This document shows positions 26,139 to 28,821 of a stretch of 53,414 nt of DNA, one piece after another. The position numbers and the translations under genes are program-made. Each line of letters starts with the position of its first letter. Positions within the stretch are counted from its first letter, which is position 1. Under the pieces are notes generated by a model. The model worked only from the letters and a program-made list of their open reading frames with translations. It was not told the origin of the DNA and searched no databases. Origin of the DNA: an uncultured Pelagibacteraceae bacterium (lineage in GTDB: Bacteria > Pseudomonadota > Alphaproteobacteria > Pelagibacterales > Pelagibacteraceae); NCBI GenBank assembly GCA_902525355.1, contig CABZGO010000008.1:1-53414 (forward strand), read 5' to 3'.

Positions 26139-27548
26139 ATGAACAAATTTAGCTCCATTTATATTAGCTCTTTTTTATTTTTAATAAGTATTCTGTCTTT
26201 TTTTAATATAATTTATTCAAATTATTTTGATATTTTTTTTAATATTGAAAATTATATATATACTCTAGTAGTAAGTTTTTTTTTGGGTGTATTAATATTA
26301 TTTTTTAATAGGAGTAATATAAGAAAAATTACTCTTTATGAAAAAATATTTACTGTTTTATTTGGTTATTTTTTATTTCCATTAATTATATCCATACCTT
26401 ATTATTTTAGTATTCAAAATATATCTTTATTAAATTCATATTTTGAAGCGATCTCAGGTTTTACTTCTACTGGATTTACTATTTTTGAAAATATAAAACA
26501 ATTAGATGAAAGTCTAATTATATGGAGATCCACTTCTCAATGGATTGGTGGTATTTATTTTCTATTTTCAATTTTAGTTTTAATTGACATATTTGATAAA
26601 AATCTCAAGCAATCATTTACAGTATATTTATCTTTCAATTATAACGAAATATTCAAACAATCTATCAAAATTATAATAATTTATTGCTTATTAACTTTAT
26701 TTACATTTATTTTATTTAAGATAATTAATTTAAGAACTTTTGATGCATTTAATTTGTCATTATCTGTAATATCGTCTGGTGGTTTTTTACCTGTTAATAG
26801 AATAGATTACTTATTTGAAAATGATGTAAGTAAAATTATTTTATCTTTTACTATGATGCTTTCATTTTTTAGTTTATTTTTAGTATACAATCTTATTTTC
26901 TTTAATAAAAAAAAACTCAATTTTTTAAGTGAGGATTTTAACCTTTTAATTTACTTACTAATAATTATTTCTTTTTCGTTTGTTTTTTTAAACCCAAGTA
27001 ATAATTTCCCTGTAATTCTAGTTGCTATATCAAGCAGTATTTCTAATATTGGTATTTCATTTGATGATACACCAAACAATTTAATATTTATTTTCTTTAT
27101 TATGGTTGTGATTGGAGGTTCTTTTTTTTCAACTAGTTCAGGTATCAGGGTTATAAAAATATTAAGTTTGTTAAAATTTTCTTTAAATAACCTATTATCC
27201 CACACTAAACCAAATCAAATTTATTCGAATAAAGTCACATTAATTAATGAGAAAACTGAAAAGTCAGATATTAACAAATATTTTTTTTCAATAATTATTT
27301 TTATTGTTTCATTATCCCTTTTGACTTTAATGTTAACATTCTCTGATATTCAATTTGAAAATTCATTTAAGCTTTCTATCTTAACAATCATGAATACTGT
27401 TAATTCAAGTATGTTTGAACTTGCGAATTTTGATTTTTATAACCTTTCATTTTTAACTAAGATTTATTTAATAGTTTTCATGATAATAGGTAGAGTAGAG
27501 CTACTAACAATACTAATATTATTTAAAAAATATCTTTTCAAATATTAA
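26139..27548 (+). CDS. trkH: TrkH-family potassium uptake membrane protein
   Basis: The K+-conducting subunit that works with TrkA. The 469-residue protein has many membrane helices and four pore-loop segments; the first contains SGFTSTGFT (about 105-113) and later ones VISSGGFLP, GISFDDTPN and ELANFDF positions correspond to the family's Gly-containing selectivity filter turns. It is very rich in Phe, Ile and Asn, reflecting the AT-rich codons. It ends 25 nt before the tRNA-Arg gene. In other alphaproteobacteria hfq commonly follows trkA, and here trkH does. Confidence 0.88.
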   Translation: MNKFSSIYISSFLFLISILSFFNIIYSNYFDIFFNIENYIYTLVVSFFLGVLILFFNRSNIRKITLYEKIFTVLFGYFLFPLIISIPYYFSIQNISLLNSYFEAISGFTSTGFTIFENIKQLDESLIIWRSTSQWIGGIYFLFSILVLIDIFDKNLKQSFTVYLSFNYNEIFKQSIKIIIIYCLLTLFTFILFKIINLRTFDAFNLSLSVISSGGFLPVNRIDYLFENDVSKIILSFTMMLSFFSLFLVYNLIFFNKKKLNFLSEDFNLLIYLLIIISFSFVFLNPSNNFPVILVAISSSISNIGISFDDTPNNLIFIFFIMVVIGGSFFSTSSGIRVIKILSLLKFSLNNLLSHTKPNQIYSNKVTLINEKTEKSDINKYFFSIIIFIVSLSLLTLMLTFSDIQFENSFKLSILTIMNTVNSSMFELANFDFYNLSFLTKIYLIVFMIIGRVELLTILILFKKYLFKY

Positions 27549-27573
27549 ATTAGTATTATAAAGTATTTTTTGT

Positions 27574-27650
27574 GCGCCCTTAGCTCAGCTGGATAGAGCA
27601 TCGGTTTTCTAAACCGAGGGTCGGAGGTTCGAATCCTCCAGGGCGCGCCA
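27574..27650 (+). tRNA. tRNA-Arg (anticodon TCT)
   Basis: A 77-nt cloverleaf with the 3' CCA encoded. The acceptor arms GCGCCCT and AGGGCGC pair perfectly, the anticodon arm is TCGGT-TTTCTAA-ACCGA with anticodon TCT, and the T arm is GGAGG-TTCGAAT-CCTCC. It reads AGA/AGG, the dominant arginine codons in this window. The flanking genes are core genes and I see no sign of element insertion. Confidence 0.97.
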
Positions 27651-27683
27651 TCTTTAATTGATCAACGTAGATGAGGTTATTTT

Positions 27684-27758
27684 ACCATTGATGGTTGTAT
27701 TACTTTCTGCTTTACTCGAGTATTCAAAAATTACTTTTTGAATAATTTGTTAACAAAT
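27684..27758 (+). promoter_or_regulatory. dyad-rich leader upstream of aapJ
   Basis: Between tRNA-Arg and aapJ lie four inverted repeats in sequence. They are ACCAT-TG-ATGGT (27684-27695), the perfect palindrome TACTCGAGTA (27713-27722), a 10-bp perfect hairpin TATTCAAAAA/TTTTTGAATA with loop TTAC (27721-27744), and the perfect palindrome ATTTGTTAACAAAT (27745-27758). The second and third overlap by two bases. They could be operators or an RNA structure controlling the binding-protein gene. They match no riboswitch I know. Confidence 0.5.
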
Positions 27759-27780
27759 AAATAATAAAAAGAGGAAAATA

Positions 27781-28821
27781 ATGTTTAAAATAATAAAACA
27801 ATTGACTTCTGTAGTTGCTATGTTTGCTGTGTTATTTGCTTTTTCAACAGAAACAATGGCTGCTAAGAAATCAAAAACTCTTGAGAACACTAAAAAAAGA
27901 GGATTCGTAAGATGTGGTGTTTCTCAAGGTCTTCCTGGATTTTCAAACGCAGATGAGTCTGGAAATTGGACAGGAATAGATGTTGATGTATGTAGAGCTG
28001 TTGCAGCTGCTACATTAGGAGACGCGACTAAAGTTAAGTTCACTCCTTTAAGTGCAAAAGAGAGATTTACTGCACTTACTTCAGGTGAAATTGACATCTT
28101 ATCAAGAAACACAACTTGGACACTTTCAAGAGATGCTGACATTGGTTTAACATTTGTTGGTGTTAATTTTTATGACGGACAAGGTTTTATGGTAAGAAAA
28201 GGTTCAGGAATTTCATCAACAGGTGAATTTAAAAATGGAACATCAGTTTGTACAAACTTAGGAACTACAACTGAGCTTAATATGAGAGATTTCTTTGACT
28301 CAAGAGGAATTTCATATGAGCCAGTAGTTTTTGAAAAAGCTGATGAAGTTGTAGCCGCATATGATGCTGGTAGATGTGATACATACACTACAGATAAATC
28401 TGGTCTTGCTGCACAAAGAACTAAATTATCAGCTCCAGATGATCACGTAGTGTTACCTGAAACTATTTCAAAAGAGCCACTTGGACCAGTTGTACGTCAA
28501 GGTGATTCTGTTTGGGAAGATATAGTAAGATGGTCTTTAAATACTATGATCGAAGCAGAGGAGTATGGTGTTAACTCATCAAATGCTGATATGATGAAAA
28601 CTTCAAACAATCCAGCAATCAAAAGATTAGTTGGTGCTGAAGGAGAATTAGGTGCAGCTTTTGGTTTAGATAACGAATGGAACTTAAGAATTATCAAACA
28701 AGTTGGTAACTACGGTGAAAGCTATAAAAGAAACATAGCAGACACTGGAATTCTACCTGATAGAGGTCCAAACGAATTATGGACTAAAGGTGGAATATTG
28801 TACGTACCACCAGCAAGATAA
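27781..28821 (+). CDS. aapJ: general L-amino-acid ABC transporter, periplasmic binding protein AapJ
   Basis: Solute-binding protein (SBP_bac_3 family, also annotated yhdW) for broad-range L-amino-acid import. The 346-residue protein has a signal peptide (about 1-27, ending ETMAAKK) and the AapJ-type sequence VRCGVSQGLPGFSNADESGNWTG... and later YTTDKSGLAAQR. A strong ribosome site, GAGGAAAATA, sits just before the ATG, unlike most genes in the window, which fits very high expression. Codon use is more G+C-rich and regular than in neighbours. A terminator separates it from aapQ. Confidence 0.94.
   Translation: MFKIIKQLTSVVAMFAVLFAFSTETMAAKKSKTLENTKKRGFVRCGVSQGLPGFSNADESGNWTGIDVDVCRAVAAATLGDATKVKFTPLSAKERFTALTSGEIDILSRNTTWTLSRDADIGLTFVGVNFYDGQGFMVRKGSGISSTGEFKNGTSVCTNLGTTTELNMRDFFDSRGISYEPVVFEKADEVVAAYDAGRCDTYTTDKSGLAAQRTKLSAPDDHVVLPETISKEPLGPVVRQGDSVWEDIVRWSLNTMIEAEEYGVNSSNADMMKTSNNPAIKRLVGAEGELGAAFGLDNEWNLRIIKQVGNYGESYKRNIADTGILPDRGPNELWTKGGILYVPPAR

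Follow-up and report, generated by a model that had tools for sequence, protein, structure and literature searches.

Leader systems already described

Bacteria of the SAR11 group are the most abundant in the ocean and have very few regulatory proteins, most having been lost. How they respond to nutrients with so few is a standing question, and the leader of aapJ (yhdW), described here, is a specific candidate for post-transcriptional control.

The closest described systems are the 5'-terminal stem-loops that stabilise mRNAs in E. coli, such as those of ompA and papA (review PMC3997798); RppH and RNase E both require single-stranded 5' ends (PMC3997798). The aapJ leader resembles them in the position of its stem, predicted to lie 0-2 nt from the first base of an abundant mRNA, in a shape that is kept while the sequence is free, and in an open ribosome-binding site. 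It differs in that a sequence-invariant palindrome adjoins the stem-loop, its stems are very AT-rich, and its stabilising effect is a prediction. The candidate RNAs of 'Ca. Pelagibacter ubique' reported by Meyer 2009 (PMC2704228) come from the same organisms and include small leaders built of two consecutive stems (the pntA motif), whereas the main text of that report does not contain yhdW and the pntA motif precedes another gene. That two-stem motif was rejected as the identity of the aapJ leader, since it belongs to pntA.

Rfam did not place the leader in a known RNA family either: in the window nothing matched it up to E 10, and in HTCC7211 tRNA alone reached the gathering score. No earlier report of this leader was found in the open-access library searched, a scope that does not prove novelty.

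Organisation of the aapJ locus

The window, the whole 53,414-nt stretch of DNA analysed, contains aapJ/yhdW on the forward strand at 27781-28821, an ORF of 346 aa for the substrate-binding protein of an amino-acid ABC transporter (Pfam SBP_bac_3, E 1e-17). Genes for NtrY and NtrX lie upstream, NtrX 3 kb away. The immediate upstream neighbour is tRNA-Arg (TCT) on the same strand at 27574-27650, identified by ARAGORN and Rfam tRNA; only some of the related loci have it in this position and, judged from this comparison, it is outside the element. The gap between the tRNA and the aapJ ATG is 130 nt long (27651-27780), as had been stated in an earlier sequence-only reading, and the four dyads which that reading described are all present in it: dyad 1, ACCATTGATGGT, at 27684-27695; dyad 2, TACTCGAGTA, at 27713-27722; dyad 3, hereafter hairpin 1, at 27721-27744, with a 10-bp stem formed by TATTCAAAAA (27721-27730) and TTTTTGAATA (27735-27744) around the loop TTAC; and dyad 4, hereafter hairpin 2, the palindrome ATTTGTTAACAAAT at 27745-27758 with the invariant core TTGTTAACAA. 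A Shine-Dalgarno-like AGAGGA (27770-27775) follows, outside both hairpins according to sequence and fold.

The view that the hairpin does not terminate the tRNA transcript was borne out, the interval 27400-27900 being free of terminator-like sites; an intrinsic terminator of tRNA-Arg, consisting of a G+C stem with a T run, was sought there and rejected. Folding of the window's leader alone gave z-scores against shuffled sequences of only -0.50 (150 nt) and -1.54 (69 nt around the hairpins), and the dyads of this single sequence are therefore not beyond chance.

Promoter and predicted transcription start

In 80 SAR11 aapJ loci the elements occur in the same order: a -35 hexamer of the TTGA type and, 17 nt further on, a -10 hexamer, both ahead of the hairpins. 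In the window the -35 hexamer TTGATG (27688-27693, forward strand) forms the centre of dyad 1, and the -10 hexamer TTTACT (27711-27716), 17 nt after it, is straddled by dyad 2. Of 139 leaders, 125 have a TTG-type -35, a gap of 16-18 nt and a -10 ahead of hairpin 1, and in these the stem of hairpin 1 begins 2-7 nt past the -10. The dyads themselves are poorly kept at this end of the leader. Of the 16 nearest leaders, 9 have a perfect dyad 1 and 2 a perfect palindrome at dyad 2; across the genus, 9 leaders out of 84 have a perfect dyad 1. Dyads 3 and 4 are retained in every one of the 80 aapJ loci fetched. On this comparison the symmetry of dyads 1 and 2 is incidental, and the two correspond to the -35 and to the -10/start region of the aapJ promoter.

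The start of transcription was placed at 27720-27722 by homology with the relative HTCC7211, for which the start site is metatranscriptomic. Table 2 of Hou 2016 (PMC5069720) gives 1015259, on the minus strand, as the upper coordinate of HTCC7211 yhdW. The start codon of yhdW in genome G013 is at 1015199, and the listed coordinate thus lies 60 nt upstream, on the first base of ATATTCAAAATACGTTTTGAATTATTTGTTAACAAATAA; positional fit is the basis both for reading the Table 2 coordinates as start sites and for taking G013 as HTCC7211. The coordinates listed for potD, tauA and opuAC follow the same rule and sit behind good promoters. So placed, the HTCC7211 +1 falls at A-T-ATTCAAAA, 2 nt ahead of the equivalent of hairpin 1 and 60 nt before the ATG. 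As in known 5'-terminal stem-loops, the stem lies within a few nucleotides of the mapped 5' end, judged by both the HTCC7211 start and the promoter spacing.

Conservation of the two hairpins

The two hairpins differ in what has been conserved. At the place of hairpin 1, 94-100% of leaders have a stem of at least 8 bp, a length that dinucleotide shuffles reach in 11-12% of cases; the best stem per sequence was taken, with G-U allowed, which leans towards pairing, and the shuffle control used the same choice. The arms are ATTCAAAA/TTTTGAAT in g1, the genus of the window, AAATTACA/TGTAATTT plus variants in g6, and TTTTGAAAC/GTTTCAAAA, TTTTGAATT/AATTCAAAA, TTTCGAAAC/GTTTCGAAA, ACTGAAT/ATTCAGT and others in g5. 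When four g5 genomes were searched with a covariance model built from one genus (R1), three gave a single strong copy each; the model missed the other genera, since hairpin 1 has no sequence in common between them; pairs were therefore counted across genera on an alignment with loops removed, comprising 29 distinct rows from the three genera. All eight helix-1 pairs show two-sided changes there, 97.4% of cells being paired in helix 1 and 98.1% over all cells, and the covariation score is 0.743; slid controls reach no more than 0.210, and shuffles average 0.155. Within g5 alone, loops kept, there are 15 two-sided cells and a score of 0.176 against at most 0.025 when slid. One series of loci (L146, L151, L149) runs UA, UG, CG and so includes a wobble intermediate. 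In a strand test, allowing G-U added 27 pairs and allowing A-C added 26, which favours neither. It is pairing and not sequence that is conserved, and on comparative grounds hairpin 1 is under selection as a shape, free in sequence. Because it lies at the +1 and varies in a way that a DNA-reading protein would not tolerate, it is read as RNA.

For hairpin 2 the reverse applies. Its core TTGTTAACAA is identical in all 29 distinct rows of g1, g5 and g6, and two flank pairs change symmetrically (ATT..AAT to TAT..ATA). The proposal to distinguish covarying stems from conserved palindromes is hence answered differently for the two: hairpin 1 covaries, and hairpin 2 combines a letter-invariant core with two covarying flank pairs. 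Judged from the alignment, hairpin 2 is under selection letter for letter and would be recognised by its sequence. Folded alone it has a predicted energy of -2.3 kcal/mol at 37 °C and -4.6 at 20 °C in the g1 form, and of -0.7 and -2.5 kcal/mol, respectively, in the g5 form; as RNA it would be weak yet foldable at sea temperature (g1 form, 20 °C).

Distribution and a second gene with the core

A search of 297 genomes of the order with the pattern TTTGAATNNTTTGTTAACAAA found it in 145, once per genome and in the window's genus only; the reversed control had no match in the same search. Genera g5 and g6 carry their own form of the leader. Among the leaders compared, the TTGTTAACAA core is missing upstream of aapJ in g2, g3, g4 and family f2, and the leader has been lost in at least one member of the window's genus (L117). 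The aapJ leaders of g2 (L121, L125) have another palindrome, TTTAATTTAAATTAAA, directly before the ribosome-binding site, and those of f2 (L126, L128, L129) have similar AT-rich symmetric runs before it.

The 12-mer WTTGTTAACAAW shows no genome-wide excess over its reversed-pattern control in 40 genomes of the genus, with about four copies of each per genome. Its intergenic copies precede a gene for a Liv-type amino-acid-binding protein, 12-14 nt before the ATG. The window's own genome also has a Liv-type leader with TTGTTAACAA (L246). Leaders located by protein search of the 40 genomes contain the exact core in 25 of 30 cases (L265-L294), and one of the five exceptions, TTATTAATAA, changes symmetrically. 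In HTCC7211 the listed start of the Liv-type gene (PB7211_130) is 10 nt before the palindrome. Most Liv-type leaders also have a conserved TATAAA just 5' of the palindrome.

Possible function and alternative explanations

The conserved hairpins point to RNA-level control of aapJ. Of the explanations offered by the sequence-only reading, an RNA element controlling aapJ is the one supported by the comparison, with conserved hairpins at the predicted 5' end of the mRNA and covariation in hairpin 1. The reading favoured here, with moderate confidence, is that of a structured 5' leader in which an end hairpin would protect the abundant aapJ mRNA and a second element would provide a sequence-specific site, in RNA or DNA. 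The promoter TTGATG-17 nt-TTTACT would fire at about 27720-27722 and give an RNA that opens with hairpin 1. Hairpin 2 adjoins it directly, and about 11 nt separate hairpin 2 from the ribosome-binding site, which precedes the ATG; the hairpins would occupy roughly the first 40 nt. With 0-2 unpaired bases left at the 5' end, hairpin 1 may, by analogy with E. coli, act as a shield against pyrophosphate removal and 5'-end-dependent decay. Protection of the mRNA is the best reading of hairpin 1 because of what RppH and RNase E need, the E. coli precedent and the open ribosome-binding site; a translation switch is not evident, since neither hairpin covers that site. More weakly, the occurrence of TTGTTAACAA in the aapJ and Liv-type leaders suggests that a candidate partner, protein or RNA, could tune amino-acid uptake. 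The relevance of the leader lies in a site common to a second amino-acid-binding protein, in a similar proteorhodopsin mRNA (see below), and in the report that the amounts of YhdW protein and of its transcript are uncoupled in HTCC1062 (as cited in PMC13198564).

For hairpin 2 a DNA site is a serious rival to the RNA reading, even if on the whole unlikely: a dimeric factor, for instance a repressor, would bind TTGTTAACAA just downstream of the +1 at both aapJ and livJ, with hairpin 1 a separate RNA feature. The symmetry is perfect through the centre, including the loop, which is needless for an RNA hairpin and needed for a dimer site; the 10-bp core is invariant, the spacing of half-sites constant, and the flank pairs change symmetrically. 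The core also stands between about +11 and +36 in both amino-acid uptake leaders. Against this, the lack of a genome-wide excess of WTTGTTAACAAW in the 40 genus genomes leaves a very small regulon at most, with leader sites seen at two genes only, unlike a multi-target transcription-factor regulon; no candidate regulator was identified; the adjoining hairpin 1 retains its shape while its sequence varies freely; and the palindromes at the corresponding place in the opuAC and proteorhodopsin leaders vary in length symmetrically, which suits a stem over a dimer site. RNA was ranked ahead of DNA for hairpin 2 because it adjoins the RNA-like hairpin 1 and because these analogous palindromes vary in this manner.

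That the leader responds to an amino acid or to the nitrogen state as a small-molecule riboswitch or an attenuator is very improbable. It does belong to an amino-acid uptake gene, and SAR11 has riboswitches elsewhere (PMC2704228). Set against this are a mere ten or so invariant bases, with no junction, terminator or Rfam match and no pairing to the ribosome-binding site.

The dyads had also been proposed to form a stacked operator for NtrX, and NtrX operators resemble them in being palindromic, near start sites and related in physiology. In favour are the NtrY and NtrX genes upstream, and in Smith's work of 2013 nitrogen limitation is said to raise YhdW in HTCC1062. Known NtrX sites, however, have the form CAA-N2-5-TTG (PMC9223101), and the invariant aapJ core reads TTG-N4-CAA, the half-sites being reversed. 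Nor does hairpin 1, free in sequence, offer a constant site: its CAA and TTG stand further apart in g1, most g5 leaders have them the other way round, and g6 has neither. With no fixed CAA-N2-5-TTG in the leader, this proposal was abandoned as highly improbable.

Ordinary AT-rich palindromes without function, a caution already raised from the single sequence, fit the unremarkable fold of the whole leader and apply to dyads 1 and 2, which are promoter sequence and not conserved, but for hairpins 1 and 2 chance is refuted by conservation, with TTGTTAACAA invariant and two-sided changes at every hairpin 1 pair in three genera, and as an account of the element it is scarcely credible.

Similar palindromes in other SAR11 leaders

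In Table 2, fourteen HTCC7211 genes have their own leader as well as a listed start. Of these leaders, eight (those of the transporter binding proteins potD, tauA, opuAC, dctP, livJ and yhdW, of rhodopsin and of the hypothetical PB7211_641) contain a perfect palindrome with arms of at least 5 nt, and the other six do not. Singly, the eight have P values of 0.009 to 0.27 against dinucleotide shuffles; as they were picked after looking, the combined P, 0.004, was computed over all 14.

Comparison backs, with less certainty than for aapJ, two of these leaders, those of proteorhodopsin and opuAC. The proteorhodopsin leader is about 75 nt long and has three helices (L312-L341; HTCC7211 L201 from 317): a covarying hairpin near the +1, then an invariant palindrome AGTTTATATAAACT (or AGTTTAAATTTAAACT), and a third helix, AAAAACT/AGTTTTT, which encloses the ribosome-binding site and is nearly letter-invariant up to the ATG. 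It shares with aapJ a start a few nucleotides before a covarying hairpin, followed by a loop-less palindrome and the ribosome-binding site, and differs in its sequences (AGTTTATATAAACT) and in the third helix. It has no Rfam match and looks like a candidate regulatory RNA. Given this likeness, the two-hairpin layout may be a wider SAR11 strategy. In opuAC/tmoX the palindrome stands just before the ribosome-binding site and occurs as CTTAATATTAAG, CTTAATATATTAAG, ATTAATATATTAAT or ATTAATATTAAT (L342-L371; HTCC7211 L141), with symmetric changes in flank and length.

A broader proposal, which is speculative and rather doubtful, would be that the genes which SAR11 expresses most for uptake and light harvesting are controlled by short palindromic hairpins at the extreme 5' end of their mRNAs, TTGTTAACAA being an address shared by aapJ and livJ for a putative factor.

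Perfect palindromes at the +1 or +2 of HTCC7211 mRNAs are also seen in potD (ACGTTAACGT, L139), tauA (TTTAATTAATTAAA, L140), dctP (AGTTAATTAACT, L204) and PB7211_641 (AGTTATAACT, L203).
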